Source of the DNA: Acidobacteriota bacterium
GTDB taxonomy: Bacteria > Acidobacteriota > Terriglobia > Acidiferrales > UBA7541
NCBI GenBank assembly: GCA_003223255.1
Contig: QHYJ01000088.1
Coordinates: 6,564-50,204, forward strand
Direction of reading: 5' to 3'
Length of the DNA: 43,641 nt
A program made the translations under genes and the position numbers. Each line of letters begins with the position of its first letter. The first letter of the stretch is position 1. The notes under the pieces were generated by a model, which was not told the origin of the DNA, made no database searches, and saw only the letters and a list, made by a program, of their open reading frames with translations. Shown here one piece after another: positions 13,631 through 33,789 of the stretch.

Positions 13631-14779
13631 TCAGCCGCGCGAGAGTTCAGCGATGCTCCAGGTTGCAAACGTCTTCCGACGGCAGGCGTCGAGGAAACCG
13701 AAAAAGACGGCGGTATTGGCCAGCAGGAAAACGAAAGGTAGCCGCAGCAAACCATTCAAGCGGGACTTGTTGTGTTGCCACACACCCAGTAAGGCCATGG
13801 TGTAAAATGCGATCTGCACTGCGAAAAGTAAGGCAAACAAGTGCTCGCCTCGCAAATGGAAACTCGCTACGAGCGCCGCAGCGAGGGGGAGCAGAGAGAG
13901 CCACCGCAAAAACTTGCGAGACACGAACTGCCATAGTCGGAGACCGCGCAGCTCGTGCCGCAACCTCCACATTCCGAGCGCGCCCTGCGCAGCGATTCGT
14001 CGCCTGCGGGCAAACTCCTCCCGGGCCGAGCTACTGCAGCGCTCGAGGGATCTGGCCTGCGGTTCATAGAGAATGGCCGCACCCGCGCCGCCGACTCGGA
14101 CAGGATGTTCCAAGTCATTTGCGAGATCAGGATCCAGATCGGTAAACAGGGCGCGACGTAAGCAGTACACCGATCCGTCACAAACCAGCACGGATCCGAG
14201 CTTGCTCTCCAGTGCATCCAGTGCGGACTCGTACTCCAGATAAGCGTTGCTGCCGCTTGTCATCGTGGAGCTCGCCGGGCCCGCTACATTGCACTCCATC
14301 CCGGTGACGCAGCCCACGCGCGAATCAGCAAAGTGGCGCACCAACGTTCTCAGGCATTGCGGCCCAATGTGCGTGTTGGCGTCGGTAAAGAAAAGGAGTT
14401 CGCCGTGTGCCAGTCGGGCCAATCGGTTCAAGGTTATGATCTTACCGGCGCGTTCCGGGTTACGTGCAAATCTGAGGCGCGAGTCACGAACCGATCTAAT
14501 CGCCTCGTCCGTGCCATCGGTTGAGGCGTCGGAACCTACTAATACTTCCAACCGATCGGCCGGGTAATCCCAAGCCAGTGTTTGCGCCAGTTTCCACCCA
14601 ATGTCCTTTTGTTCGTTCCGTGCCGCAATGAGCACACTTACGGCCGGGTGGTAGTCGTCTCTAGTTACGGAACGAAAGCGGCGCGTCAGGGAGAGCCCCT
14701 CGAGTACCAGGGGGTAACCAATCCATACGTAGCCCAGCCAAACTGCACTCGCCCAAAAGAGCCCTGCTGCGGGGGTCAT
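13631..14779 (-). CDS. Membrane-bound glycosyltransferase family 2
   Basis: A 382-residue processive-type GT2. An N-terminal hydrophobic segment (GLFWASAVWLGYVWIGYPLV) precedes the GT-A domain, which has VSVLIAARNEQKDIGWKL, LEVLVGSDASTDGTDEAI and LLFFTDANTHIGP. EEFARRRRIAAQGALGMW corresponds to the Q/RxxRW-like acceptor region. Three or four C-terminal membrane helices follow. This is the arrangement of ICAA/HAS-like or priming-adjacent transferases at the inner membrane. Its ATG overlaps the stop of the glycosylphosphotransferase gene by four bases (ATGA), so the two are translationally coupled. Confidence 0.87.
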   Translation of the reverse strand: MTPAAGLFWASAVWLGYVWIGYPLVLEGLSLTRRFRSVTRDDYHPAVSVLIAARNEQKDIGWKLAQTLAWDYPADRLEVLVGSDASTDGTDEAIRSVRDSRLRFARNPERAGKIITLNRLARLAHGELLFFTDANTHIGPQCLRTLVRHFADSRVGCVTGMECNVAGPASSTMTSGSNAYLEYESALDALESKLGSVLVCDGSVYCLRRALFTDLDPDLANDLEHPVRVGGAGAAILYEPQARSLERCSSSAREEFARRRRIAAQGALGMWRLRHELRGLRLWQFVSRKFLRWLSLLPLAAALVASFHLRGEHLFALLFAVQIAFYTMALLGVWQHNKSRLNGLLRLPFVFLLANTAVFFGFLDACRRKTFATWSIAELSRG

Positions 14780-16152
14780 TGTCCACCCCGGCCGAGCAGT
14801 AGGATCTTAAATGTTTTAAACAGCGTCAACAGATCCAACCCAATGGACCGGTTCTTTATATAAAACAAATCGTACGAGAGCTTGTCCGCATTATCTTCCA
14901 TGGAAGAGCAATATCCCCGATGTACTTGCGCCCAACCCGTGGCTCCGGGGCGTACTGCCCAGCGCTGGCGGTAATAAGGTATTTGGCAAACCAGTGAGGC
15001 TTCTTGATCGGGGACAAACGGCCGTGGCCCAATGAAATACATGTCGCCCTTCAGGATGTTGAACAATTGTGGCAATTCGTCTAAGCGAAAGCGGCGAATC
15101 CATTTGCCAACACGTGTGCAGCGAGGGTCATCACGAATGGCCGGAGCTAGCGTGCTACTGCGGTCGGCGCCCACCTTCATAGAACGGAATTTGAAGATTG
15201 TGAAGTGCCGACCATTTTCACCCACGCGTGTCTGCCGGAGGATGGCCGGGCCATCCGAGTCGAGGCGTATCAGGAGGGCAGTGATGAGCATGATTGGCGA
15301 TGCAACAATCAATGCGATGACTGCGAAGAAAACTGAAAACGTTCGGTTGAGAAAAAGTCTCACCGAGGATCTTCTAAAACTGCGGGAAAACAACAACAAG
15401 CTGATGCTGAATGCACCCAGCCAGACCTTGCCCGTCAGTTCCTCGTACAAGTCGGTGCCGTCGTCAACGCTTAACCCCGTAGTTTTAACTGCCATCAGTC
15501 TTTCAACGGGTAAACATCCACGTCTTTCGCCTATCGCGACGATCAGCCGGCGTGCCTGGCCCGATTCTGCCATCGTCCAAATTACCTCGGGAGGGCCAAG
15601 GTAGCGGACGCCCTCGAACGTGTCGTCAGCATAGCCATAGTCCACAATGCCTAGCACGCGAATGCCTACGTCATGGCGTCTGCGTAACTCGCGGATAATA
15701 CTCGCTGCCAAGGGTCCACATCCCCAAACCACAGCCGGTTCCGCTAAGGTAGGCCGCCTGGCAAATTCTTCGAACAGGTAACGTGAGCTCGTCAGGGCGG
15801 CACTAGCCAGAACCATGCCAAACAATACTGTCGCCACCTCAATGCGCACTCGCAGCCAGGTGTGCAATAGGGCTGCGATAAGCATCGCTAACCCCATAGC
15901 CTGAATAATTCGCGGTAGACTGTGCGCCTGGTGCGTTATAACCTGCGGTTCATAAAAATCTAAGCAATACAAGCAAAACAGAATGACGACACCCACTACG
16001 CCGACCTGGCTGCATGTTGTGAGTGTCCAAGCATGATGCTGACCATCGCCGCCCCTGCAGGCTAGGAAAAGCGTCGTAAATACCAGCAGCACCTCACTGA
16101 TCCCAAGCCCCACAGTGCGGAGGGGCACTGATCTATTAAAAATACGAATCAC
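14776..16152 (-). CDS. Exopolysaccharide polyprenyl glycosylphosphotransferase (initiating sugar transferase)
   Basis: A 458-residue initiating enzyme that transfers sugar-1-phosphate to undecaprenyl phosphate. N-terminal membrane helices (about residues 10-110) lead into a CoA_binding_3/Rossmann-like domain with PAVVWGCGPLAASIIREL. One further membrane hairpin follows. The C-terminal catalytic domain has KFRSMKVGADRSS, RRFRLDELPQLFNILKGDM, IGPRPFVPDQEA and RPGATGWAQVHRG. It resembles the EpsB/WbaP class found in PEP-CTERM EPS loci (TIGR03013/TIGR03025). The start is a GTG at 16152 with only a weak ribosome site. It is the first gene of the glycosyltransferase run. Confidence 0.9.
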   Translation of the reverse strand: MIRIFNRSVPLRTVGLGISEVLLVFTTLFLACRGGDGQHHAWTLTTCSQVGVVGVVILFCLYCLDFYEPQVITHQAHSLPRIIQAMGLAMLIAALLHTWLRVRIEVATVLFGMVLASAALTSSRYLFEEFARRPTLAEPAVVWGCGPLAASIIRELRRRHDVGIRVLGIVDYGYADDTFEGVRYLGPPEVIWTMAESGQARRLIVAIGERRGCLPVERLMAVKTTGLSVDDGTDLYEELTGKVWLGAFSISLLLFSRSFRRSSVRLFLNRTFSVFFAVIALIVASPIMLITALLIRLDSDGPAILRQTRVGENGRHFTIFKFRSMKVGADRSSTLAPAIRDDPRCTRVGKWIRRFRLDELPQLFNILKGDMYFIGPRPFVPDQEASLVCQIPYYRQRWAVRPGATGWAQVHRGYCSSMEDNADKLSYDLFYIKNRSIGLDLLTLFKTFKILLLGRGGQ

Positions 16153-16295
16153 GCGGTTAGTTTTCCAACCTGTCGGAAGAACTAAGAAGGATTGGTCGGT
16201 TTGACATGCTCAATACGTTTCGGGAGTACGCGCAGGTTCGTGCCTACAGGCATAGGGTGGCCGGAGTTGGAGCTGCACGTTTGATCGTACTGCAA

Positions 16296-16345
16296 TTGGT
16301 TGCTGCCCGACTGCGCCTAATATAATACGAATACTTACGATGGCT
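16296..16345 (-). promoter_or_regulatory. Possible sigma-70 promoter for the glycosyltransferase run (weak)
   Basis: On the minus strand, TTGAGC followed 18 bases later by TATATT (with TATTAT overlapping) lies about 150 bases before the GTG of the initiating transferase. The match is weak. The site could equally be chance AT-richness. Confidence 0.25.
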
Positions 16346-16626
16346 CAAGCCGCATTAGCATGCCTCTGAGACGCAGCGGTGTTCGCATCACCGTTCATGG
16401 TTCCAAAGCCCGTGTTCAGGGGCAGTGAGTCTACGCGTAGCGTACATGGATACGAACTGGTCGCTCCGTCCGGTGCCGGCAAGTTGCGGCGCAGCACCGT
16501 ACCCAAGACGAATAACAACGAACCGAGCGTACAGAGAATACCACTTGGCGAACTATCGCCAATAACGCCGGCGACTGCGTTGGCAATGGTGCTCACGAAC
16601 GGTAGATAAAGCATCTCCTTTGTCAC
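16345..16626 (-). CDS. Small single-pass membrane protein, unknown
   Basis: A 93-codon frame starting at GTG 16626 or, more likely, ATG 16614. GAAGGAG lies 11 bases before the ATG and AAGGAG directly abuts it. The middle has one hydrophobic helix followed by arginines, SPSGILCTLGSLLFVLGTVL then RRN. This looks like a PEP-CTERM sorting tail (Pro-Ser, helix, Arg-Arg). However, about 45 further residues follow, whereas true sorting tails end at the arginines. No family is recognised. It lies between a near-consensus sigma-54 promoter (16933-16948) and the EPS glycosyltransferase run, on the same strand, which favours a real gene. Spurious translation remains possible. Confidence 0.4.
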   Translation of the reverse strand: MTKEMLYLPFVSTIANAVAGVIGDSSPSGILCTLGSLLFVLGTVLRRNLPAPDGATSSYPCTLRVDSLPLNTGFGTMNGDANTAASQRHANAA

Positions 16627-16898
16627 TCCTTCTCGCGAACTCTGAATTGGAGTACCGAACGGTTTTTCCCCAGAAATTCGCTTCTAGGGGACTGGGCTAA
16701 GGGCTCCAGGGTCCAATCGTTTGGCTAGAGACCGACGAGGACACCCCGGGGTTAGGCGATCAAAGTAGTCTGGACCAAGAGCGCGGTAAAGAGTCTGGTC
16801 TCGCAAGATGTAATCAATGATCGGGGAATTGTGCGCCAGCACGATCGCAGGCTACCGCCATTAATGTCTTTTTGACAACTCAAGTTCAGAACCAACAA

Positions 16899-16924
16899 TT
16901 CAAATGTACCTTTCAAATGTACCT
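16899..16924. repeat. Exact 13-bp tandem duplication
   Basis: TTCAAATGTACCT occurs twice head to tail (16899-16911 and 16912-16924). On the minus strand it sits right at the predicted transcription start of the sigma-54 promoter at 16933-16948. Confidence 0.85.
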
Positions 16925-16932
16925 TACAGAGG

Positions 16933-16948
16933 TGCAATCGGCCTGCCA
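16933..16948 (-). promoter_or_regulatory. Sigma-54 (RpoN) promoter, near consensus
   Basis: Minus-strand TGGCAGGCCGATTGCA matches the -24/-12 consensus TGGCACG-N4-TTGCW at every conserved position but one, with the required GG-N10-GC spacing. The predicted start is near 16922. It would drive the small membrane protein gene and possibly the initiating sugar transferase and following EPS genes. Confidence 0.65.
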
Positions 16949-17000: not shown

Positions 17001-17307
17001 TTCTGAAAACACAGGCCTTAGAGGGAGGGGCGCCATCGCGGAATACTTTGCATACTACCAATCTCTCTCTGAAAAAGCGGTCGAATGGAAAACTCTTTCC
17101 ACGATTGAGAACCGAACCGAATCGAATCATGTTTGCTCTCCTGCCCGCGGAAAAATGTTAGTTGGATTGCCGCTAGGGAATGAGAAGGACTGCTTGCCGT
17201 TGGCAGGTAAACAGTCGGAGGAACCAGAGAGAGAGAGACAGCAAACACGAGTCCTGGTGTTGCTCTCCTACTGCCTCGTCAGACTAGGAAAATTGCCATG
17301 GAGACGA

Positions 17308-18264
17308 CTACTTCGTCCCTCGCGAAGACGAAGTGGATGGGCTAACCCGGAAACGCGAGAGGGCCTCGCCAAGATTTTGAATGAATGCCTCGGAATTGTA
17401 AAGTTCGGCGCTGGTCCGCAGACTCTCCGGTGTAGCAACAGGCTCAGCTATGTCCAACTTAAATTCTCGTGCGATGTCCTCGATGATCTTCGGCCCGATT
17501 GGCCTCTGTTGTTCGACGTAGGCGTTAATCAGGGCATGCTCACACAGCAGGTTCACCACCCGAGGAATCCCCAGCGAATATTTGTGTACGGCTTCCATTG
17601 CCGCGGGACTGAAAATCGGCTGCCCGTTCGCCCCTGCTCCCGCGATCTTCAATCTTTCGAAGATGTAGTCGTGTATTTCTTCTTTCGTTAGTGCGCCCGT
17701 CTTGCAACGAATCATGATACGTTGCCGCAGCTGCCTTAGCTGAGGCAAATTTAGCTTCTCTTCGAACTCAGGCTGGCCAGAGAGTACGATTTGCAGCAAT
17801 TTCTCCGTCGACGTCTCTAAGTTTGTAAGCAGTCGAATCTCTTCAAGCACTGGAAATGTCAGATTTTGGGCTTCGTCGATGATCAATACTGCGGTTTCGC
17901 CTCCCCGGAATCGTTCCACGAGCCATTCATTCAGCTTCATCAGTTGTTGGCTCTTGGAACTCGATTCGCAGCGAATTTCGAATTCTGCCAGCGTAAAGTC
18001 GAAAAACTGGGTCGAATTTATGCGGGAATTAAACAGAAACGCTGTCTTTGTGCCGTGCTGATGCAGCCAATCGAGAAGGCGGTTGACGAGCGTGGTCTTG
18101 CCCGTTCCCACCTCGCCGACGAGCGTCATAATACCTTTCCGTGTCTGTATGCCGTACATCAGACCGGACAAGGTCTCCTCGGTCTGTTTGGTAAGAAACA
18201 GATACCGAGGATCCGGATTCACATTGAATGGGTTTTCTTTTAATCCAAAAAATCTTTTGTACAT
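17308..18264 (-). CDS. ExeA-like AAA ATPase, XrtA/PEP-CTERM-associated
   Basis: A 318-residue AAA ATPase of the ExeA/GspA-like family accompanying XrtA EPS loci (TIGR03015). The start MYKRFFGLKENPFNVNPDP is diagnostic. Walker A is GEVGTGKTT (residues 50-58), and Walker B is VLIIDEAQN with Asp130-Glu131. GQPEFEEKLNLPQLRQLRQR and GIPRVVNLLCEHAL are the usual sensor/arginine-finger regions. The C-terminal 50 residues are variable. It probably energises or organises envelope assembly of the EPS export machine. It starts 60 bases after the beta-barrel gene and ends the export operon. Confidence 0.9.
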   Translation of the reverse strand: MYKRFFGLKENPFNVNPDPRYLFLTKQTEETLSGLMYGIQTRKGIMTLVGEVGTGKTTLVNRLLDWLHQHGTKTAFLFNSRINSTQFFDFTLAEFEIRCESSSKSQQLMKLNEWLVERFRGGETAVLIIDEAQNLTFPVLEEIRLLTNLETSTEKLLQIVLSGQPEFEEKLNLPQLRQLRQRIMIRCKTGALTKEEIHDYIFERLKIAGAGANGQPIFSPAAMEAVHKYSLGIPRVVNLLCEHALINAYVEQQRPIGPKIIEDIAREFKLDIAEPVATPESLRTSAELYNSEAFIQNLGEALSRFRVSPSTSSSRGTK

Positions 18265-18324: not shown

Positions 18325-19753
18325 TTATCGCAAAACCACTGGCCTCCCATGCCACCCGAAACTCAAGAAGATTTGGTGTTGTGTATAGTCCGTCCCGCAA
18401 TTCGGGCTGTTGCAGAGGGACGGGTTGGAGACTTGAATTTGTGCTTGATATCCAAGCGAAAAGTTCATCGTGCGACCTAACGGTCGGCTCAAACCGGCTC
18501 CCGGTACCCAAGAATCAAAGGTTGGCGAGGCGAGGCCAGTTGCAGCCACAATCTCCTTGTTCTTGGCATATCCGAAATTCAAGCTGCCGTTCCACACTCG
18601 CGTGAGCCGCCGACTCATCGTGGCACCGACTAAATCCGTGCTTGCCCCGTTAAACAGGCCACTGCCGTTGCTTATTCCGTGTAAGTAGCTCAGGGCCACG
18701 CTGCCTTGACGGAACGCGTATTTCAGTGACGCGCTTCCTGATCCCGACACCCTCCGCGTCAAACCGTTTATGGGCACGCGAAACGTGGTGACCTCAGGTC
18801 CGCCCGCCAGGTTTAGCGCCAGCCTTCCTGTAATTCTTCTTCCAAACAAAAGCTGGGCTACATGGTCGCCCAAAGCTTGTGCTACACCGGGATAATGATA
18901 TGCGCTGAAACGGTAGCCTAATCCGATGTCGTCTTTCCGGGTGATGGCGTAATTGTACCCGGCATTTAGAATCTCAGTATCATTGTTTATGTTTTCGGAA
19001 TTAGTGAACCGCAATAACCCGTGTACCGCCGCGAACGTCATTGACCCTCGTCGGCTCACGTCGTAAGTCACTTGCGCAGCGGAGGAATTGCTGTAGCGGG
19101 GGCCAGTTGCGGTGAAGATTGTTTGACCTGGAACGAAGTAGCCCAGGCAAAGGCACGGCCAGAGTTCCAGTGATTCCGGCATAGGCCAGTCCGCTAGTGC
19201 CCCCGAACCCAAACTCGCTCTGGGGCAAGTATGAGAATTGGTCAACCAAGAGCGCGTGCCATCTCCGCTCATCGATCGCATAGACTGCCGCGAATTGATG
19301 ATAGTGCCCGTTTCCCTGGAGCTTGTCCGTGGAAGAAAAGCCGCCACCCGAATAATTGACTGAAAGTGAGGTGTGGCTCCACGCTTCAACGGCGCTCAGG
19401 TCGCCGCTCACAAAACTCGTTGTATCCCATCCCATGCTTGGTGCGCGATTTAGTGAATTGGAACGGACGGCGTTACTGTACCGGATCCCTGGTACCGAAT
19501 AACTGTGCCGCATCTTTGCAGTGCCTATTGTTGGGTTCTGAATCCCGGTCACAGGCCCCATATCCGGTTGCAGTGTCTGACTGCCCTGATCTAGGCCTTG
19601 CTCATCATCGCTGAGATCGGGAAGGGGCATCAGCACGCGCGCCGCCGGCTTCGGCCTTTCTCCGCTCTCTTGCTGGGCCGAGAGCGGTAACGTGCAAAGA
19701 CCAACGACCGTTCCCCAGATAAATCCACGCACCAGTCTTCGGTAGTCCTTCAT
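18325..19753 (-). pseudogene. Outer-membrane beta-barrel protein of EPS locus, interrupted by a +1 frameshift
   Basis: Two overlapping frames encode one protein. The 5' part (from ATG 19753, GGAAAAG in front) has a signal peptide ending LCTLPLSAQ, then about 185 residues up to TGTLAVPLPG. The sequence then makes sense only in the next frame, which continues YFVPGQTIFTATGPRYSNSS through repeated beta-strand patterns to GTDYTQHQIFLSFGWHGRP (stop at 18325). Deleting one G from the GGG at 19142-19144 restores a single frame of about 475 codons. The C-terminal strands alternate polar and apolar residues as in outer-membrane barrels, and the position beside the Wza homologue fits a PEP-CTERM-locus barrel protein. 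It is either a sequencing indel or a true loss of function. Confidence 0.75.
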
Positions 19754-19762
19754 AGCTTTTCC

Positions 19763-20413
19763 TTACGGCACCACAATCACGTCCCCGGATTGCAGCTCAA
19801 TGTTCTGCTCAGGATTCTTCCCGCTGATTGCATCTTTGTAGTTGAATGGCAATTTAATTTGCTTGCCATTCTCCGTCCTCAGGATGTAGATGTTCTTCAC
19901 CCGGCCAAATTGCGTGAACCCCCCGCTGTTAGAGAGTGCCTGTAGCACGGTCAGGTGTGGAAGGAGCGCATACGCGCCAGCTCTAGTGACCTCTCCGTTC
20001 ACGTAAACCCGCTGGCTGTTGATTTCCGTCACGCTCACGGTCACCTGCGGGTTGTTCATATACTTCTTTAATCCTTCGGTGAGCATTCCCGCCAGCTCCA
20101 TGGGTGTAAGCCCTGCTGCCTGCACATCGTTCAGCAGGGGCAGAGTGATCTTTCCATCGGGGCGCACGGGGACCGTCCGCGTCAATTGATCTTCCTTCCA
20201 GACGTCAACTCTCACTACATCTTGTGGCCCAATTTTATAGGCTGCGTTTTCCGCGGCGGCCTGCGCAGCACTTGAGCCTGCCTGGCTTTGCGACTCCTTG
20301 GCCTCTTCTCTTGCCTCCCTCTTTTTCCCCTGCGCAGAAGCGTTCTGACTACTTGTGGGAGTGCCACTTACGAACGAGAAGGCTGCCAGAATCATAAGAA
20401 TCGTACTTTTCAT
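19763..20413 (-). CDS. Wza-type polysaccharide export lipoprotein/periplasmic protein
   Basis: A 216-residue polysaccharide biosynthesis/export protein. A signal sequence (MKSTILMILAAFSFVSG) is followed by a charged linker. The Poly_export domain, YKIGPQDVVRVDVWKEDQLTRT with VPVRPDGKITLPLLNDVQAAG, comes next, then a SLBB domain with QRVYVNGEVTRAGAYALLPH and LSNSGGFTQFGRVKNIYILR. It should form the periplasmic/outer-membrane conduit for EPS. ATG 20413 (GAAGGAAC upstream) is chosen: the longer frame to 20530 overlaps the regulator gene and lacks a signal peptide at its start. No lipobox Cys is obvious. It is shorter than E. coli Wza, as is usual for PEP-CTERM-type exporters (TIGR03027). Confidence 0.9.
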   Translation of the reverse strand: MKSTILMILAAFSFVSGTPTSSQNASAQGKKREAREEAKESQSQAGSSAAQAAAENAAYKIGPQDVVRVDVWKEDQLTRTVPVRPDGKITLPLLNDVQAAGLTPMELAGMLTEGLKKYMNNPQVTVSVTEINSQRVYVNGEVTRAGAYALLPHLTVLQALSNSGGFTQFGRVKNIYILRTENGKQIKLPFNYKDAISGKNPEQNIELQSGDVIVVP

Positions 20414-20436: not shown

Positions 20437-21387
20437 CTACTGCTTCCCTTCCAGACCTGTTTGCTTGATCTTGTAGAGCAGAGATTTGTAGCTGATCTGG
20501 AGTTGCTGAGCCGCCCGCTTCCGGTTCCAATGCGTTCGCTCGAGCGCTTTGGAGATCAAATCACGCTCGGTTTGCCGCGAAGCCGCGCGCGCCGCCATTT
20601 TCAACGATAAACTCCGCGATTCCTCCGCGTGGGTTGGTTCTGGCTTTGGCATTTCCTGAAGTTCCTGAATAGCTTTCCCGGCATCACCAAGCACCACAAT
20701 TTTTCTTGCGAGGTTTTCCAGTTCCCGCACGTTCCCTGGCCAGGCATGCCCCACGAGCATTTCCCTTTCCTTGTTGCTCAGTACAGGAAGGTTGCGCACC
20801 AACTCAGCCTTATATTTTGTGAGGAAATGCTCCATCAGCGGGAGGATGTCTTCCCTTCTGTCCCTCAAGGGAGGCAAGCGTAAGCAAACACCATTGATCC
20901 TGAAATACAACTCACTGCGAAATCTCCCCGCTTCCATCTCCTTCTCGAGGTTCCGGGACGTGGAAGCGATTAAGCGTGCGCTGTTGCGCACGTTCTCGTC
21001 ACTCTCCCCGTCAGGCAGAAGTGAGAGTAGAACCTTCTGACACGCAAGATCCAGCTCATCGATCCCGTCCAGAAATAGAGTGCGTACGACATCCTCGGGC
21101 CTCTCATCACTGCCTCTCAAATCGGACCTCAATTGTGCGAGAAATTCTTCCGCCTCCAGCGTCCGGCAACTCAACTTCTTAAGCGGTGTGTGACAATGTT
21201 TGGAGAGCCGGTGAATGAGGCGGCCGTAAACTTCTTTGCCGGTCCCACTCTCCCCCATCAACAGCACGGGGATGTTCGTGCGAGCAACTTCCCGGACTAT
21301 TGCATTCAAGCCTCGAATCGAAGGGGAACAGCCTGCAACAAAGGCACTTTTCGCTGATTGGTGCGCGTGACTCAAGGATGTGCTCAC
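20437..21387 (-). CDS. Sigma-54-activator-like AAA/Fis-HTH protein lacking GAFTGA
   Basis: A 316-residue regulator with an AAA domain and a Fis-type HTH but no receiver. Walker A GESGTGKEV and the arginine-finger region RFRSELYFRINGVCLRLPPL are intact, and the HTH reads WNRKRAAQQLQISYKSLL. Two hallmarks are missing. The stretch where ELFG...GAFTGA belongs is replaced by LEAEEFLAQLRSDLRGSDE, and Walker B is LFLDGIDEL, with Gly for the catalytic Glu. It probably cannot remodel sigma-54 holoenzyme and may act as a DNA-binding antagonist or tether. I prefer GTG 21387 (GGAG five bases upstream) to TTG 21426, because the sigma-54-like promoter at 21410-21425 overlaps the latter. It precedes the export genes in one operon (24-base gap). 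Confidence 0.82.
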   Translation of the reverse strand: MSTSLSHAHQSAKSAFVAGCSPSIRGLNAIVREVARTNIPVLLMGESGTGKEVYGRLIHRLSKHCHTPLKKLSCRTLEAEEFLAQLRSDLRGSDERPEDVVRTLFLDGIDELDLACQKVLLSLLPDGESDENVRNSARLIASTSRNLEKEMEAGRFRSELYFRINGVCLRLPPLRDRREDILPLMEHFLTKYKAELVRNLPVLSNKEREMLVGHAWPGNVRELENLARKIVVLGDAGKAIQELQEMPKPEPTHAEESRSLSLKMAARAASRQTERDLISKALERTHWNRKRAAQQLQISYKSLLYKIKQTGLEGKQ

Positions 21388-21409
21388 AAATGCTCCGAAC
21401 TTGAGCAAA

Positions 21410-21425
21410 AGCAAATCCCATTCCA
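21410..21425 (-). promoter_or_regulatory. Sigma-54 promoter candidate for regulator/export operon
   Basis: Minus-strand TGGAATGGGATTTGCT has TGG and TTTGCT elements with exact GG-N10-GC spacing. The predicted start is near 21399, giving a short leader that still includes the GGAG ribosome site of GTG 21387. It would drive the degenerate activator, the export protein, the beta-barrel and the ATPase. Confidence 0.5.
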
Positions 21426-21856
21426 AGTGGAGCGCTGGGCTATAAGGCGAACTAGACTGATTAAAGCCTTTTCTTTCCTCAAGTTACACAAGGGTTTGGT
21501 AATAGGTCTCGGCTCGATGAATGTAGCCAAAAGTCCTGATTTTGTTCCAAGAAGTGGCAAACTCTTTTCCTTTCTCCGTCTCCGGAAAGGCCGCACCAAG
21601 GGCACCCTGTTTCCCATTTCTCTTCCTTCTCTTGATGGTTCCAATCCCGGCTTTCCTTCTGGACCGTATCATTCATCTTCTTCAGCAGGGCTCCGCGTGG
21701 GTTACGAGAGCCATCTGCGATCTTTTCGGTGTCCCTGCATCAACCCTCCATCGCGAAGTTGCGCCAGGGTTTAGTGTTTCAGCGCGCAAAGTCGATATTG
21801 CAGTGCGGCGGCATCCGTTCCAGCGTGACGCCGTTCTTCTTGGCGCTGCTAGTCGC
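21426..21856. other. Intergenic region between BY-kinase and regulator operon
   Basis: 430 bases with no convincing gene. A plus-strand hairpin at 21569-21590 (CCTTTC...GAAAGG) lacks a T-run, so it is not a clear terminator. Short open frames here have no ribosome site or family features. Confidence 0.5.
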
Positions 21857-26453: not shown

Positions 26454-27500
26454 TCATCCACGGGGGGAGCCAAACGAGTTTTTGCCCTTGGTCATCAGGC
26501 CGGCATCGCGAATCTTGTAGATGAGCAGCCTGTAGCTGATTTTCAATTCCTGGGCTGCTTTCCTGCGGTTCCAGCGGTTAGCGCGCAGTGCCGCAAGGAT
26601 GATGTTCTTTTCGCTGGCTCGAATTGCCTCCTTGCAAAGACGCTTCAAAGGAACGACGCCGTTCGCAGGAACATGTGGCAAAGCGGGAGTCACGGGCAGC
26701 GACGAATCCTCCAGGATCGTTGCTTCGGGACCAATGAGGACGTGGCGCGCGATGCCGTTCGAGAGCTCGCGGATATTCCCCGGCCAGTCCATGCATTGCA
26801 TGTAATGCAGCGTCTCCATGGTGAGCGGTTCCGCCTGCGCCTTGAATTGCTCTTGACAGCGTGCCAGAAAATATTCCGCCATAGCGGGAATGTCTTCCCG
26901 GCGGTCGCGCAGCGTCGGCAGCTTCAGGCGCACCACGTTGATTCGATAATACAAATCCGCGCGGAACTTTCCCTCTGCAATTTCCTCTTCCAGATCTTTG
27001 TCCGTGGCGCACATTAGCCGCGTGTCAACGGAACGTTCCAGTTCATCGCCAATTCGGGAAAAGCGGCCATCCTGAAGAAATTGCAGAAGTTTGCTTTGTG
27101 AAGCCAAGTCGAGATCAGCAATTCCATCCAGAAACAGCGTGCCATTGTGCGCAAGCTCCACTCTTCCCGGCTTTGTGGAATGCGCACCGGTAAAGGCTCC
27201 CTTTTCGAAGCCGAAGAGTTCGCTCTCCAGCAGCGTTCCGGGAATCGCCGCGCAATTGATTTTCACAAACTGCCCGTTCGCCACGGGGGAATGAGCGTGT
27301 ATCCAGCGTGCGAGAACTTCTTTGCCGCTTCCCTTTGGCCCGCACAGCAATACCGGAATGTTGGTCCTCGCGATTTTTGTGGCGCGCTTGCGGACCTCTT
27401 TCATCGCTCCCGAGCGGCCAAACAAGATCTCGTCCGGTGGCAGGGCGTTCGCCAGTTCCGGGGCAGTAGGCTTCTTTTTTCTCTCGGCGGACACGTTCAT
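26454..27500 (-). CDS. Sigma-54-dependent Fis-family activator without receiver domain
   Basis: A 348-residue bacterial enhancer-binding protein made of an AAA domain and a Fis HTH. Walker A is GPKGSGKEV, and the sigma-54 contact loop is ELFGFEKGAFTGAHS. The arginine-finger region is KFRADLYYRINVVRLKLP, and the HTH is WNRRKAAQELKISYRLLI. Walker B reads LFLDGIADL: the usual catalytic Glu is Gly, as in the other receiver-less paralogue. ATG 27500 (MNVSAERKKK) is chosen; AGGG lies just upstream and the frame before it is not conserved. With no sensory domain, control is likely by expression level or by partner proteins. It probably acts on EPS or biofilm genes; the targets are inferred. Confidence 0.87.
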   Translation of the reverse strand: MNVSAERKKKPTAPELANALPPDEILFGRSGAMKEVRKRATKIARTNIPVLLCGPKGSGKEVLARWIHAHSPVANGQFVKINCAAIPGTLLESELFGFEKGAFTGAHSTKPGRVELAHNGTLFLDGIADLDLASQSKLLQFLQDGRFSRIGDELERSVDTRLMCATDKDLEEEIAEGKFRADLYYRINVVRLKLPTLRDRREDIPAMAEYFLARCQEQFKAQAEPLTMETLHYMQCMDWPGNIRELSNGIARHVLIGPEATILEDSSLPVTPALPHVPANGVVPLKRLCKEAIRASEKNIILAALRANRWNRRKAAQELKISYRLLIYKIRDAGLMTKGKNSFGSPRG

Positions 27501-27525
27501 ATGATGCCCTAGCTGGTGAGGGCAA

Positions 27526-27541
27526 AGCACATCACAGGCCA
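27526..27541 (-). promoter_or_regulatory. Sigma-54 promoter candidate for receiver-less activator
   Basis: Minus-strand TGGCCTGTGATGTGCT has exact GG-N10-GC spacing, TGGC and TGCT. The predicted start is near 27515, giving a 15-base leader before ATG 27500. A dyad AAGTT-N5-AACTT (27597-27611) lies about 89 bases upstream of the start. Confidence 0.4.
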
Positions 27542-27596
27542 TCAGAGGTTTGCGACCTGCAGCGCTGCCACAACCATATCACCGAAACAACCATAG

Positions 27597-28871: not shown

Positions 28872-30335
28872 CTAGCCGTTTCTCGTCCCTACAGGTGCGG
28901 TTTCCTCAGTCCCAGTCCCAGCGGATGCTGTCGATTTCCTCGTCCGCGGCGAATCCAGGTTAAACTGCCGCATTTTATAAAGCAGCGCCTTGTAACTGAT
29001 GCCCAGCATTTTAGCCGCGTCTTTCCGGCACCACCGCGTCTTTTCCAGCGCGTCGGCGATCGCTTCCATTTCCGCTTCGTCTTTTAAGCCGCGCACCAGA
29101 GCTTTAAGCCCTTGGTCTTTTGGCAGTGCCGGCTCCTCGCGCGGCGAAGTCCGCTGCCGCGTTGCAGACATCTCCACCAATTCGCGCAAGCTGCCTTCGT
29201 CATCTTCGAGAATCACGTAACGCTTGATGAAATTCTCCAGCTCGCGCAAATTTCCCGGCCACGGATAGTTCACGGCTGCATCCAGCAAATGTTTGGACGG
29301 AGGCTGTCCCGGCTTGCCGTATTTTTCGCTGTATTTCTGAAGGAAATGTTGAAACAGCAGGGGAATTTCCGTCGTGCGTTCCCGCAGCGGCGGCACGTTG
29401 ATGGACAATACGTTCAGCCGGTAGTACAAATCCTCGCGGAAACGCCCGGATTTCATGGCTTCATGTACTTCCACATTCGTGGCCGCCAGCACGCGCACAT
29501 CCGTCTCTACCATGTGCCGCCCGCCCAATCGCGAATACTGGTGATCTTGCAGGACGTGGAGCAATTTGGCCTGCAAATGCGTGCTCATTTCCGCGATTTC
29601 GTCCAGGAAAATCGTGCCTTTGTTGGCCAGTTCAAATTTTCCGGGCTTGCTCCGTACCGCCCCGGTAAAGGCGCCTTGCTCGAACCCGAACAGTTCCGAT
29701 TCCAGCAATTCTCCCGGCAGCGCCGCGCAGTTCACTTTTACAAACGGCTGGTTGCGCCGTTTCGAGCGCAGATGGATCATCCGCGCCACAACTTCTTTGC
29801 CTACGCCGCTTTCGCCACAGATGAACACCGGCACGTCCACCGGCGCAATTTGCAGAATCTGTTGCCGGATCCGCACCATCTGCGGGCTGGCGGCCAGGAA
29901 GCTCAAATCCTCCGTAACCTGATCGCAATAATCCCGCAGTGCCTGGTTTTCCGTAGCCAATTGTTTCTTCTGGCGCGACTTCAGCATCGCCGCATCCAGC
30001 TCGGTTTTCTCAAAAGGCTTCGTCAAATAGTCGTGCGCGCCGATGCGAATGGCCTCCACCACCGTCCCCACTTCATTCGAACACGACAGCATGATCACAT
30101 TCAGGCTGCGGTCGATCTCCATCAGCTCTTTCAACGTGTCAATCCCGTTCATCTCCGGCATGAGCACGTCCAGAATGATAAAGTCCGGCCGTTGGCCCTT
30201 CTTCACTTGGTTTAGCGCTTCCTTGCCCGAGCTGACGGTTGCCACCTCGAACCCGTCGACTTCCAACAGGGTCTGCAGGTACTTTCGAATGCTCGGTTCG
30301 TCATCCACCACCAGTATTTTTTCTTTTTCGGCCAT
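28872..30335 (-). CDS. NtrC-type response regulator (receiver, sigma-54 AAA, Fis HTH), PrsR-like
   Basis: A 487-residue response regulator. The receiver domain (residues 3-120) has ILVVDDEPSIRK and the phospho-acceptor Asp56 in DFIILDVLMPE. The central AAA domain has GESGVGKEV, the sigma-54 contact loop ELFGFEQGAFTGAVRS and an intact Walker B, GTIFLDEIAEM. The C-terminal HTH is WCRKDAAKMLGISYKALL. It resembles the PEP-CTERM-box regulator family (TIGR02915). ATG 30335 (MAEKEKILVV; AAGGGAAC upstream) is chosen over a GTG at 30356. The cognate kinase gene ends 36 bases upstream. It is the only one of the three activators here with all catalytic motifs and is therefore the likely driver of the sigma-54 sites. 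Confidence 0.93.
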   Translation of the reverse strand: MAEKEKILVVDDEPSIRKYLQTLLEVDGFEVATVSSGKEALNQVKKGQRPDFIILDVLMPEMNGIDTLKELMEIDRSLNVIMLSCSNEVGTVVEAIRIGAHDYLTKPFEKTELDAAMLKSRQKKQLATENQALRDYCDQVTEDLSFLAASPQMVRIRQQILQIAPVDVPVFICGESGVGKEVVARMIHLRSKRRNQPFVKVNCAALPGELLESELFGFEQGAFTGAVRSKPGKFELANKGTIFLDEIAEMSTHLQAKLLHVLQDHQYSRLGGRHMVETDVRVLAATNVEVHEAMKSGRFREDLYYRLNVLSINVPPLRERTTEIPLLFQHFLQKYSEKYGKPGQPPSKHLLDAAVNYPWPGNLRELENFIKRYVILEDDEGSLRELVEMSATRQRTSPREEPALPKDQGLKALVRGLKDEAEMEAIADALEKTRWCRKDAAKMLGISYKALLYKMRQFNLDSPRTRKSTASAGTGTEETAPVGTRNG

Positions 30336-30371
30336 TGACAGTTCCCTTTCTTGCACGAAATGTTCTCGGCG

Positions 30372-31601
30372 TTAGCCTTGATCCATCGGCAGCAAAAACG
30401 TGAATCGGCTTCCTCCCTGGGGATCGCTTTCCACCCAGATCTTGCCGCGGTGCGCCTGGATGAGCCGCTTTGCAATCGCCAGCCCCAATCCCATCCCCGA
30501 AGTGTTCCGGTCCACTCGCACAAAGTCTTCAAAGATTTCCTGATGATGTTCCGCAGGAATGCCCACGCCGGAATCCTTTACGCTCACCTCTGCGCTGTTC
30601 GGCCGTGGCAAACGAAATCGTCGCCGCTCTTCGATAGGCATCATCGTAGCGACACGGCGCTCCCAAAAATGCGGCGCCGCGCGAAGCGACACCATGCCGC
30701 CCTTGGGCGTGTGCTTCAGCGCGTTGTCGAGAAGATTCGCGGCCACCTGCTGAACCTTTTGGTAGTCGAATCGGAAGGTCGGTATCGAAGGGTCGATGTT
30801 CGCTTCCAGCCGCACTCCCTTGCGCTGAAAAGCTTCGCCCCACCGCTTGGAAAGTTCATCCAGACAATCTCGTAAATCGTTTTCGCGCAGTTGCAAAACC
30901 AGTTTGCCGCTCTCGAGCGCCGAGTAATTCAAGAACATGGAAACCAGCCGCACCAATCTTTCGCAGCTATCTTTGGATTCTTCCAGGATGTCTCGCTGCT
31001 TGTCGGTCAATCGGCCGAGGGAACCCGCGAGCAACAAGTCGTAATACCCTTTGATGACCGCCAGCGGCGTCTTCAACTCATGAGCCGCGGACGCTAAAAA
31101 CACGGTTTTCTGGCGATTCACCTCTTGCAGTTTCAGATAGGCAGCAAGCAAATTCCTGTAAGTGATTTCACGTTCCTGCAGCAGCTCTTGCACCGTAGGC
31201 TGAGTTCCGGGATCGGCGCTGGCGTGCCCATCTGTCCGGTTTTCCATTTCCACTACCAGCCAGTCGCATTCTGGTATCCACTGAATGCGCGCGGCAATTT
31301 TCTTTTCCGCCGCCCCCATTTGCACGCTTACTTCGTGCTCGCCATTTTCCACTTGGCGGAAAATGCCAGCCGCATCCAGCTTCAATAGATCGCTGAAGAG
31401 ATTGGGGTCGTCCGTCTCTTTGAACCCTTGAAATTCCAGACAACGACGGGCTCGCGTGTTTACCAACAGCAAACTTCCGCCGCGGTCCGCGACCATCAGC
31501 GGTTTGTCGAGCGTGTCTAAAAGTCGGCTGACCGCTTGTAGGGGAAGAGAGCGGCAACTGCGATCTTCTGCCACGGGCGGCATGGCTATCCTGCCGGTCA
31601 T
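30372..31601 (-). CDS. PAS-containing sensor histidine kinase
   Basis: A 409-residue kinase with no obvious membrane segment, so probably a cytoplasmic sensor. A PAS-like domain covers about residues 22-120 (LLDTLDKPLMVADRGGSLLL). A short coiled coil leads to the HisKA domain with the phospho-accepting His174 (ASAAHELKTPLAVIKGYY). The ATPase domain has the N-box NLLDNALKHTPKGG, G1 DSGVGIPAEH and G2 GMGLGLAIAKRL. ATG 31601 has GGAAAGAA upstream. It lies directly before the response regulator and forms its two-component pair. The signal sensed is unknown. Confidence 0.93.
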   Translation of the reverse strand: MTGRIAMPPVAEDRSCRSLPLQAVSRLLDTLDKPLMVADRGGSLLLVNTRARRCLEFQGFKETDDPNLFSDLLKLDAAGIFRQVENGEHEVSVQMGAAEKKIAARIQWIPECDWLVVEMENRTDGHASADPGTQPTVQELLQEREITYRNLLAAYLKLQEVNRQKTVFLASAAHELKTPLAVIKGYYDLLLAGSLGRLTDKQRDILEESKDSCERLVRLVSMFLNYSALESGKLVLQLRENDLRDCLDELSKRWGEAFQRKGVRLEANIDPSIPTFRFDYQKVQQVAANLLDNALKHTPKGGMVSLRAAPHFWERRVATMMPIEERRRFRLPRPNSAEVSVKDSGVGIPAEHHQEIFEDFVRVDRNTSGMGLGLAIAKRLIQAHRGKIWVESDPQGGSRFTFLLPMDQG

Positions 31602-31654
31602 GTACTAGTTCTTTCCCTTATCGGTGGTAAATATTTTCCCGTCTTGGACTGTCA

Positions 31655-31683
31655 TCCTTACAGAGTGTCCCCCCTCCCGTCAA
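31655..31683 (-). promoter_or_regulatory. Sigma-70 promoter candidate for kinase/response-regulator operon
   Basis: Minus-strand TTGACG (-35) and TAAGGA (-10) separated by 17 bases, about 50 bases before the kinase ATG. No sigma-54 site is found here, consistent with constitutive expression of the two-component pair. Confidence 0.4.
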
Positions 31684-31687
31684 TGGT

Positions 31688-31706
31688 AAAAGCGTTTAAA
31701 AGCGTT
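31688..31706 (+). repeat. Direct repeat AAAAGCGTT x2, one helical turn apart
   Basis: AAAAGCGTT at 31688-31696 and 31698-31706, spaced 10 bp. It lies about 95-110 bases upstream of the start predicted from the sigma-54 site at 31774-31789, a typical position for activator binding. Confidence 0.5.
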
Positions 31707-31773
31707 CCATTTGCACATTTGCGGAAATCCAGTGGATTTCTTTTTCCCCGGTTGCCTGCGGCCAGACGGCGCC

Positions 31774-31789
31774 TGGCTCGGTCCTTGCC
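31774..31789 (+). promoter_or_regulatory. Sigma-54 promoter, near consensus, upstream of PilZ gene
   Basis: TGGCTCGGTCCTTGCC matches TGGCACG-N4-TTGCW except for A-to-T in the -24 box and the final base. The spacing is exact. The predicted start is near 31800, ahead of the PilZ gene. Confidence 0.65.
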
Positions 31790-31892
31790 AAGCTCTTCTT
31801 ATGAAAGGGGTTATATTTTGCCTGGATGATCTCGTCTGGCACCCAAGATGCTCCTATCCCGTACTATATCCTTAGTACGATCCGAGGGCTCC

Positions 31893-32243
31893 GTGCTGAA
31901 TCAGACGGTTGACGAGAAGAAGAGCTCGGCGGTTTGCTCGACGAGACGCTCACCCCGTATCCGTCTGCAGATCCCCGTCTTTGTTCGTGGCAGAGATGCT
32001 TCCGGCTCCGAGTTCATCCAACTTACCAAAACCCTTAATATCAGCGCCGTGGGGGCCTGCATAGCCTGCGAGCACATCCTGAGGCCCAGTCAGACAATTC
32101 AGCTCACCATCCCGGCGCCGTCTCCAGCCACTGCCGGACTTGTTCCCAGCGAAACGCCCCCAATCATTGCTCGGGTCCTGCGCCAGAACCTGCTAGGCGA
32201 TACCCGTCTCTTCGGTGTTGAATTCGTTCACCCCCTCGAATAA
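31893..32243 (+). CDS. PilZ-domain protein
   Basis: A 116-residue PilZ protein. The RxxxR motif is in TRRSPRIRLQIPV and the [D/N]xSxxG motif in TLNISAVGACIAC, so c-di-GMP binding is expected. The frame is open to ATG 31848. I prefer GTG 31893 because GAGGG lies five bases upstream, whereas ATG 31848 has no ribosome site; the extra 15 residues would not be part of the domain. It is divergent from the histidine kinase gene and is preceded by the near-consensus sigma-54 site at 31774-31789. Likely an effector of the same EPS/biofilm circuit. Confidence 0.88.
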   Translation: MLNQTVDEKKSSAVCSTRRSPRIRLQIPVFVRGRDASGSEFIQLTKTLNISAVGACIACEHILRPSQTIQLTIPAPSPATAGLVPSETPPIIARVLRQNLLGDTRLFGVEFVHPLE

Positions 32244-32429
32244 CTTCCTCGATCGCTTCACCAGGCCTTCCAATTGGGGACTTTTGTTACATCTTCTGGC
32301 GCAGGCCTTACCTGCGCCACTTTCTTCCTCTCTTGCTCGCTTTTGCCTCGTTTTTCGGCTCGTTTTGTACTAGCATGCCGCGCGCCCTTGGACGTTTCAG
32401 GGTACCAAGTCATCAGGGACCAGTACGAA

Positions 32430-32445
32430 TGGTCTCTTGGTTGCT
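32430..32445 (+). promoter_or_regulatory. Sigma-54 promoter candidate for GGDEF-PilZ gene
   Basis: TGGTCTCTTGGTTGCT: TGG and TTGCT with exact GG-N10-GC spacing, but the rest of the -24 box is poor. The predicted start is near 32456, 65 bases before the gene. Confidence 0.35.
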
Positions 32446-32520
32446 CCTGAGAGCTATAGAACAATTTAAGATGCTTCCCCAAACCCCGCGGGGTAGGCAG
32501 AGGTTACGTCTATTCCGGAT

Positions 32521-33789
32521 ATGCCCAGCCCGGGCGCCCTTGCGCCCCCGCGCCTGCCGGTCGAGGACATGTACCTCGAGTTGCTTGCGGATACGCTCGA
32601 GAGTCTTGACCTGCCCGCACGCGGACAATTTCTCCAGCGCTTCCTCCGCGCCATCGCTCACGTGGAGTTGCAGGAAGCGGAGTGTGTGCGCGTTTGGGAT
32701 GAGACGATCGCGCGACGCCGCGCGCTGACCGATCCCGCCGGCCGGCAGATCGCTCTGAAAGCTGCACTCCTGGATGTGCTCGCGACTTCCGGTGTCCTCC
32801 GCGTGCCCATCATGATGGAGTACGAGGATCTCAAAAAAATCGAATTGAATGCCGTCACCGATCCGTTGACCGGCCTCTACAACCGCAGGCTCTTCGGAGA
32901 ATCCTTCGAGAAAGAATTGAATCGCGCGCGCCGCTACACCCAGCCGCTTAGCCTGGTCATTCTAGATCTTCACCGCTTCAAGGAAGTAAACGACAAACAC
33001 GGCCACCCGCGGGGCGATGAAGTCTTACGCGCCACCGCCGCCACGCTCAAGAAGGCGCTGCGCACTTCCGACTCGGCTTTCCGCATCGGGGGCGACGAGT
33101 TCGCCCTGCTCTTGCCGCAGACCGACTCGCAGCAGGCTCTTGCGCTCAGCCGCCGCGTGGAAGCGGTTTTTGCGGAGATGCTCCAGCCGCTTCAACTGGA
33201 AGTTGCCGTCAGCATGGATCATGGCATTGCCATTTTTCCACAAGACGCCGAACAATCCGATCAGTTGATTCGCATCGCGGATGAGCGCCTCTACCGTCAA
33301 AAGCACGAGAACCACAGAAAAACGGTCAACGGTGCCAGCCGCGTTGGAACGGCGCCCCCTGCCGAAGCACTCTCGGCTGCACCTGCAGAAGCTCCCGGGC
33401 CGCTTCCGCCGCCGATTTCCATCGAAACGAAGCGCGCTCCGGAGAAACTCGAGAACAATCGTGAGACGCATGCGGCCCCCGCCCCCGCCGAGCTGATTCC
33501 CGCGCCCCCGCGCATGTTTGCGGCCCAGCGCAAAGCCGAACGTGTCTCCATGGCCGGCACCAACGCCTATGCCGTTCTCGGCGAGCAAGGAGCGAAGCGT
33601 GCCCGTGTTCTCGACCTGGGTTTCGGCGGCGTCGCCATCGAGTTCGATTCCCAGGAAGATCTTCCGGAGAACTTGTTCGCGGTCCTGCACGTCCCCATTC
33701 TTCCTCCCGTGCGCGTCAACCTGAAACGCGTGTGGAAGCAGCAGACCGCCCAGGGCGGCACGCGCGTCGGCTGCTCGTTCGTATCCTGA
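32521..33789 (+). CDS. Diguanylate cyclase with C-terminal PilZ domain
   Basis: A 422-residue protein. The N-terminal 105 residues are helical and unassigned. The GGDEF domain (about 108-275) has DPLTGLYNRRLF, the metal Asp149 in VILDLHRFKEVND and an intact GGDEF active site (190-194). A product-inhibition site RxxD (Arg181-Asp184) is spaced five residues before it. A Pro/Ala-rich linker follows. The C-terminal PilZ-like domain (about 340-422) has RKAER (RxxxR) and VLDLGFGGVAIEF, where the usual Ser of DxSxxG is Gly. The protein should make c-di-GMP from two GTP and may sense it at two places. ATG 32521 lacks a good ribosome site, so a start at the next ATG (32569) is possible. Confidence 0.9.
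   Translation: MPSPGALAPPRLPVEDMYLELLADTLESLDLPARGQFLQRFLRAIAHVELQEAECVRVWDETIARRRALTDPAGRQIALKAALLDVLATSGVLRVPIMMEYEDLKKIELNAVTDPLTGLYNRRLFGESFEKELNRARRYTQPLSLVILDLHRFKEVNDKHGHPRGDEVLRATAATLKKALRTSDSAFRIGGDEFALLLPQTDSQQALALSRRVEAVFAEMLQPLQLEVAVSMDHGIAIFPQDAEQSDQLIRIADERLYRQKHENHRKTVNGASRVGTAPPAEALSAAPAEAPGPLPPPISIETKRAPEKLENNRETHAAPAPAELIPAPPRMFAAQRKAERVSMAGTNAYAVLGEQGAKRARVLDLGFGGVAIEFDSQEDLPENLFAVLHVPILPPVRVNLKRVWKQQTAQGGTRVGCSFVS

Follow-up and report, generated by a model that had tools for sequence, protein, structure and literature searches.

The GAFTGA motif contacts sigma-54 in known EBPs, as far as the partial texts at hand describe it, and EBPs without this motif are usually explained as sigma-70 regulators. 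TyrR, DhaR, HupR, VpsR and the NtrC proteins of Rhodobacter capsulatus and Caulobacter, all of which lack GAFTGA or carry an altered form of it, are tied to sigma-70 in the available portions of the literature (PMC10274813, PMC5552954, PMC3162934). We analyzed a GAFTGA-less EBP paralogue, here called EBPx, encoded in a stretch of 43,641 nucleotides from an Acidobacteriota bacterium (the whole stretch is referred to as the window). This protein is instead the first product of an exopolysaccharide (EPS) export operon behind a sigma-54-type promoter and is encoded beside intact activators (Table 1). VpsR of Vibrio cholerae (PDB 7v2b) resembles it in having an EBP fold, no GAFTGA and a link to EPS and biofilm, and needs no ATP; in the same partial accounts VpsR binds c-di-GMP and is RpoN-independent, whereas EBPx begins directly with its AAA+ domain, and its gene follows a sigma-54-type promoter. 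The NtrC proteins of R. capsulatus and Caulobacter and HupR share a deleted or altered GAFTGA loop with EBPx, but the excerpts available present them as response regulators at sigma-70 promoters, while EBPx is receiver-less and EPS-linked. TyrR, DhaR and PhhR are likewise EBP homologues with a defective GAFTGA, sigma-70-dependent according to the sections available; EBPx scores 128 bits against the TyrR equivalog model (NF008085), below its cut-off of 576.

In Proteobacteria, PEP-CTERM genes are under sigma-54 control that involves an upstream motif and the PrsK-PrsR pair, as described in the accessible parts of two reports (PMC1569441, PMC9850573). The window likewise encodes a kinase and a sigma-54 response regulator (RR), with an upstream motif and a sigma-54-type site. 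Both RR (381.7) and EBPx (159.7) score below the equivalog cut-off of PrsR (TIGR02915; 502.6). In those partial texts the proteobacterial motif has TTTACA at its end and a mean spacer of 62.8 nt, whereas here a GGGAAAA..TTTTCCC palindrome lies about 129 bp before the site. Unlike the window, the system as described in the same parts of these reports (PMC1569441, PMC9850573) has no loop-less paralogue. Mixed assemblies of paralogous EBPs that work jointly on promoters are on record in the available sections of PMC9542535 (HrpR/HrpS, FleQ/FleT, RedR1/RedR2 and VnfA1/VnfA3); EBPx itself has no sigma-54 loop. We found no publication on a loop-less EPS EBP in Acidobacteria in the open-licence literature, outside which most subscription papers lie.

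Table 1. Genes and candidate regulatory elements of the EBPx locus (positions counted from the first letter of the window).
Feature	Coordinates	Strand	Basis
EpsB-type sugar transferase	14776..16152	-	model match
Sigma-54-type site TGGCAGGCCGATTGCA, score 17.3, ~0.8 kb before EpsB-type gene	16933..16948	-	matrix scan
Palindrome, score 18.8, 154 bp from next sigma-54-type site	17085..17102	.	matrix scan
XrtA/PEP-CTERM-type ATPase	17308..18264	-	277.7 bits, under 324.5 cut-off
Outer-membrane EPS gene, two frames in window	18325..19753	-	ORF reading, comparison with relatives
Polysaccharide export protein, next operon gene	19763..20413	-	Poly_export/SLBB
EBPx, GAFTGA-less EBP paralogue (AAA+ and Fis HTH), Walker B LFLDG	20437..21387	-	translation, Pfam
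GGAG, ribosome-binding-like, 5 nt 5' of EBPx GTG	21393..21396	-	read from sequence
Sigma-54-type site TGGAATGGGATTTGCT, score 13.2	21410..21425	-	matrix scan
Enhancer-like palindrome AAGGAAAAGAGTTTGCCA (minus strand), 147 bp from sigma-54-type site	21555..21572	.	motif search
EBP2, GAFTGA-bearing receiver-less EBP, Walker B DG, Walker A GPKGSGKE	26454..27542	-	motif reading, models
RR, canonical response-regulator EBP (GAFTGA, DE)	28872..30356	-	motif reading, models
Histidine kinase	30372..31601	-	model match
Palindrome, score 15.0, 23 bp before kinase gene, 150 bp from plus-strand sigma-54-type site	31624..31641	.	matrix scan
Sigma-54-type site TGGCTCGGTCCTTGCC, score 13.8	31774..31789	+	matrix scan
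PilZ-domain ORF	31848..32243	+	domain match
GGDEF-domain gene	32521..33789	+	domain match

The EBPx ORF runs from a GTG at 21387 to a stop at 20437 on the minus strand (316 aa); the plus strand has stops. Its translation matched part of the Pfam domain Sigma54_activat (PF00158; 86.6 bits, cut-off 20.2), AAA_lid_14 and HTH_8 (48.2, cut-off 22), so that the PF00158 AAA+ domain and Fis-type HTH expected of a bEBP are both present. Two other bEBP features are missing from the protein in the window: the L1 loop with GAFTGA, and the Walker B Glu and switch Asn, which are Gly and Ser here. An initial annotation, made from the sequence, had reported a lost GAFTGA and a Walker B Glu changed to Gly (LFLDGIDEL) next to an intact Walker A, arginine-finger region and HTH; translation and motif alignment bear this out in full (Walker A GESGTGKE, arginine-finger stretch GRFRSELYFR, WPGNVREL, Fis HTH). 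Sensor II is also intact. Two further changes, which the initial annotation had overlooked, affect the Asn of the "glutamate switch" and that of sensor I. Pfam detected no input domain: residue 19 of 316 is already the start of the AAA+ match, and there is no other domain N-terminal to it. An AlphaFold monomer model based on 58 family members had a mean pLDDT of 86.2; ZraR, NtrX, NtrC1 (one entry being a Walker B mutant) and PspF ranked high among its structural matches, with VpsR in 39th place. VpsR has a receiver-type N-terminus; EBPx is like it in lacking GAFTGA and unlike it in having no N-terminal domain of this type.

Orthologues of EBPx with 44-71% identity were found in a search of 61 related genomes, and a scan of species genomes yielded 567 confirmed relatives. 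The counts given below refer to the best 80 of these 567, mostly titled Acidobacteria or Terriglobia, plus the window (81 proteins), and do not include earlier loci from the same assemblies. GAFT(GA) occurs in none of the best 80 of 567, although the scan profile, built of GAFTGA-less rows, favours GAFTGA-less relatives. In the loop region, 19-36 residues separate the conserved Cys from the Walker B Asp position in the 81 members, which is 5-22 fewer than the 41 found in all nine GAFTGA-bearing comparators. As judged from these lengths, the GAFTGA loop is deleted and not substituted. Conservation is lowest within the AAA+ domain in the loop region (0.26, compared to 0.79 for Walker A) and, among the stretches measured, highest at residues 298-306 (0.96), the HTH being nearly invariant. 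EBPx is under purifying selection, with dN/dS of 0.046-0.254 in 13 close pairs. The initial annotation would have taken orthologues carrying both GAFTGA and Glu as a sign of local mutation or sequence error. For EBPx such an explanation is ruled out by these dN/dS values and by the lack of GAFT in the best 80 of 567; the second half of that expectation fared differently, since the Glu is kept in 62 of the 81 members.

The catalytic residues vary within the family. At Walker B the 81 members (best 80 of 567 plus the window) carry DE in 33 cases, DG in 14 and DA, DN or DD in five; in 29 the Asp is no longer there, and 25 of these read EE. The Asn of the glutamate switch is kept in 9/81 and that of sensor I in 4/81, as opposed to 8/9 and 6/9 comparators. 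The first Gly of Walker A is altered in 24 members, but the Walker A Lys is kept in all 81, the sensor II Arg in 72 and each arginine finger in 80. Since the Glu is so widely kept, and Walker A, DE and the sensor Asn are all found together in four members (L062, L067, L068 and L122), turnover of ATP could be relevant to many of the proteins. The minimum number of changes on the tree was two for the Glu, four for the Asp and two for the first Gly of Walker A, from which it appears that absence of the loop, common to all 81, is the family hallmark and loss of the Walker B Glu is a later change.

We reconstructed two phylogenies. In the first, which excludes mostly gapped columns and five ORFs (four EBP2, one RR) that have no WPGN/WPxN, EBPx groups with five further members in a single clade (0.77), nested in a clade (0.997) with GAFTGA-bearing receiver-less EBPs. 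In the second, a moderately supported branch (SH-aLRT 80) separates all 81 members (best 80 of 567 plus the window) from the other proteins. One GAFTGA-less protein, L044, falls within the EBPx clade in the first tree and outside it on a long branch in the second. In another order of the class, a GAFTGA-bearing receiver-less EBP (L047) precedes the export gene, so the ancestor at this place may have been a normal activator. Separately, in L171 (3811-4779), and also in L048, an EBP2-clade protein encoded before the export gene has an ELFEGT-like stretch in place of GAFTGA at full loop length, possibly an independent change of the loop. The loci L104 and L085 are titled Verrucomicrobia and Bacillota, while their EBPx proteins group with acidobacterial ones; the labels of these MAGs may be wrong.

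The export gene begins with an ATG at 20413, 23 nt after the EBPx stop. It is the next gene on the same strand in 73 of the 76 loci with enough sequence (among the best 80 of 567 and the window), the exceptions being L053, L091 and L101. This short gap and the conservation of the pair make co-transcription of the two genes likely, as the initial annotation had proposed. Upstream of EBPx is a gap of 469 nt with its own sigma-54-type site. In relatives, the genes behind the export gene are often an outer-membrane gene, a chain-length protein, an XrtA-type ATPase, an autokinase and sugar transferases; the order in the window differs, with the chain-length and autokinase genes upstream instead. 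The deacetylase and FemAB genes of the window exceed the cut-offs of XrtA/PEP-CTERM models, and rpoN is present. The outer-membrane gene, split between two frames in the window, has its main matches in one frame in L050, L054, L056, L060, L061 and L065, pointing to a frameshift or a sequence error in the window.

In order to survey promoters we used a simple sigma-54 matrix, whose weights approximate a published consensus, on 79 upstream regions (78 of the best 80 of 567 and the window; L051 and L071 have too little upstream sequence and were excluded). A site scoring at least 9 was present in 73 of the 79; the reverse strand gave 26, and mononucleotide shuffles gave a mean of 12.65 with a maximum of 21. 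In 70 regions such a site lay within 220 nt, the other nine having no sigma-54-type site in that interval. Sites scoring at least 9.5 within 250 nt were found before EBPx in 69/79 regions, and before other genes, where the sequence searched is mostly coding DNA, in 2/76 (export), 4/30 (OMPa), 4/55 (Wzz), 7/67 (XrtATPase), 5/48 (BYK), 3/27 (EpsB) and 1/20 (GT2a). This survey omits the EBP2 row, because its query matches EBPx itself, and the tiny or empty rows for RR, HK, GGDEF and ligase.

The sigma-54-type site before EBPx is accompanied, about 145 bp further upstream, by an 18-bp palindrome of the GGGAAAA..TTTTCCC type. It was obtained by expectation-maximisation on the 320 nt upstream of the site with 30 random starts, distance not being an input; the six best starts gave the motif aGGGAAAAtaTTTTCCCt, and the two others of the best eight gave another A/T-rich motif. 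In 55 of the 66 loci scoring at least 7 (70 examined) the palindrome is 130-149 bp from the site. With a matrix derived from 52 other loci, 14 of 18 held-out loci (from L050-L066, L091 and the window, a set that is not purely one lineage, as L062 and L063 group with training loci) had their best match 135-155 bp from the site; L053, L056 and L061 had the right distance with low scores, and L052, L062, L063 (134 bp) and L091 were missed. In 1.28 Mb we found 67 pairs of palindrome and site at 130-160 bp, compared to 0.67 in shuffles and a mean of 3.95 (maximum 22) with 40 column-permuted matrices; 53 of the 67 precede EBPx. Pair distances peak, with 58 pairs at 140-160 bp versus 14 at 120-140 bp and nine at 160-180 bp. 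A terminator is an unlikely reading of the palindrome given its AT-rich centre and its fixed distance from the sigma-54-type site.

The window contains three palindromes scoring at least 15, each 147-154 bp from a sigma-54-type site and each before a unit concerned with EPS or c-di-GMP: EBPx, the EpsB-type unit, and the PilZ ORF and GGDEF gene that diverge from the kinase and RR genes. The recognition helices of EBPx and of the two GAFTGA-bearing regulators in the window are closely similar: EBPx of the window has ISYKSLLYK, RR has ISYKALLYK, which is also found in many relatives of EBPx, and EBP2 has ISYRLLIYK. The helices of the remaining 13 EBPs in this genome differ from these. Similar helices need not mean equal DNA specificity. 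The site and palindrome at a set distance before EBPx, the three such units in the window and the similar helices are the new observations of this analysis. All 28 rows labelled RR have a GAFTGA-type loop, four of them being other EBPs, and the GAFTGA pattern was unmatched in two of 25 rows labelled EBP2 (L110 and L171). The DG and GPKGSGKE motifs of EBP2 recur in L052, L053 and L091, whereas many other EBP2 rows have DE.

We also examined relatives in which no EBPx was detected. Eight of nine have a palindrome 25-28 bp ahead of the kinase match, and it is absent in L164; the kinase region of L170 is cut by a contig end, and L174-L176 and L178, with weak or non-orthologous matches, have no kinase-adjacent palindrome. 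From this distribution the palindrome can exist without EBPx, and another protein, RR being the best candidate, must read it. An export match was found in 9/13 relatives without EBPx, and the stretches scanned were L196-L204 and L171. In these ten stretches no pair at 125-170 bp occurs directly before the export gene, the upstream sequence being only about 0.84 kb in L197 and L204. A sigma-54-type site scoring at least 11 precedes the export gene in L197, L201 and L203, and L201 also has a palindrome (17.8) about 96 bp from its site. The pair before the export gene thus appears largely to travel with EBPx, a pattern that fits a positive role for EBPx too. In the simplest reading of these sequences RR, perhaps with EBP2, would activate from the palindrome, and EBPx could occupy it.

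With a helix nearly identical to that of the intact activators, and with the sigma-54-type promoter and the palindrome before its gene, EBPx may serve at the same switches as they do, as a built-in brake or as a partner. We propose that EBPx is a non-activating paralogue working at the same sigma-54 enhancers, most likely in negative feedback, and consider the chances of this being right to be about even. EBPx would have been derived from sigma-54 activators and turned into a non-activating, enhancer-bound regulator of EPS genes. RR, driven by the kinase and perhaps aided by EBP2, would bind the palindromes about 145 bp upstream and open sigma-54 promoters, and EBPx, the first product of the export operon, would read the same palindrome through its closely similar helix. 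Having kept the Walker A Lys and the arginine fingers of the ring interface without a loop to touch sigma-54, it would occupy enhancers and/or join mixed rings with RR or EBP2, and so hold sigma-54 transcription in check when output increases. By competing for sites or by poisoning rings, the product of the first gene in the target operon would thereby exert negative feedback. EBPx should not engage sigma-54 through the loop, because it is GAFTGA that makes this contact in known EBPs. In the portions available of a study of PspF (PMC4132715), linked dimers of its AAA+ domain combining wild type and loop mutant kept ATPase activity and did not activate, and a Walker B Glu-to-Gln change, at the residue that is Gly in EBPx, gave constant hexamers with tight ATP binding. 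A dominant-negative partner or a repressor at enhancer sites had been put forward in the initial annotation, and the promoter, the palindrome and the likeness to the helices of RR and EBP2 support such a role, whose negative sign, like DNA binding and ring formation, we infer.

Mixed rings with RR or EBP2 could also be ones in which EBPx is needed for activation or adjusts it, a main rival reading that we nevertheless regard as unlikely. Arginine fingers act on the ATP site of the neighbouring subunit, and their retention in 80 of the 81 members, even where a member's own Walker motifs are changed, would suit such a subunit, as would the pair of palindrome and site that largely goes with EBPx before the export gene and the precedent of the paralogous EBPs that act together (available sections of PMC9542535). 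PspF, on the other hand, needs several intact loops per ring in the partial text of PMC4132715, so a loop-less subunit should weaken activation. EBPx might instead recruit or block the housekeeping polymerase at sigma-70-type promoters without ATP hydrolysis, like VpsR, TyrR or R. capsulatus NtrC. GAFTGA-less EBPs of described function act with sigma-70 in the partial accounts available, and EPS is a VpsR target, but the conserved cis-elements before EBPx are of sigma-54 type, Pfam finds no receiver domain in it and the palindromes, at about 145 bp, would be too far upstream for usual sigma-70 contacts; we think this role unlikely. The related suggestion of an activator working with another sigma factor, also made in the initial annotation, has these good precedents and no positive evidence in this locus: a loop re-aimed at another sigma factor is unlikely because the loop region is the least conserved of the AAA+ domain, and a loop-independent mechanism is possible. 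That EBPx is a decaying gene or an assembly error without function is extremely improbable, since the missing loop and variable catalytic residues that might suggest it are set against the low dN/dS, the nearly invariant HTH and the position kept in 73/76 loci.

If the preferred reading of EBPx as a non-activating paralogue, or the one as a specialised subunit, is true, sigma-54 activation would have a genetically encoded brake or such a subunit, and mixed EBP rings and enhancer feedback could be tested with three small proteins and one promoter. The palindrome is also a candidate for the consensus of enhancers that control EPS in a large phylum of soil bacteria. It is also conceivable, though quite improbable, that the three proteins are one AAA+ set on a single enhancer code, the composition of their mixed rings, shifted by EBPx from its own target operon, setting the output. 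As doubtful as this set itself is the division of roles in it, with RR supplying loop and catalysis, EBP2 a loop without the Walker B Glu in this lineage, and EBPx neither; if true, the subunits of such a sigma-54 machine would be of three kinds, catalytic, engaging and structural.

Elsewhere in the window, five sigma-54-type sites scoring about 13.4-13.8 have no palindrome at the distance described, and a weak palindrome (11.1) at 3831 lies inside a gene. In other loci, pairs were found before EBP2 (L111, L113, L114 and L128), EpsB (L074 and L084) and a chain-length gene (L054). Between the TGGCAGGCCGATTGCA site and the start of the EpsB-type gene (16152-16948) there is a short ORF (16345-16626) that encodes a hydrophobic stretch with Arg residues after it. 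The palindrome and sigma-54-type site before the PilZ and GGDEF genes (31624-33789) link c-di-GMP genes to the same control. Upstream of EBPx in L083, L085 and L086 there are additional palindromes about 20-21 bp apart, with a second group about 140-155 bp further upstream, which may be tandem enhancers.
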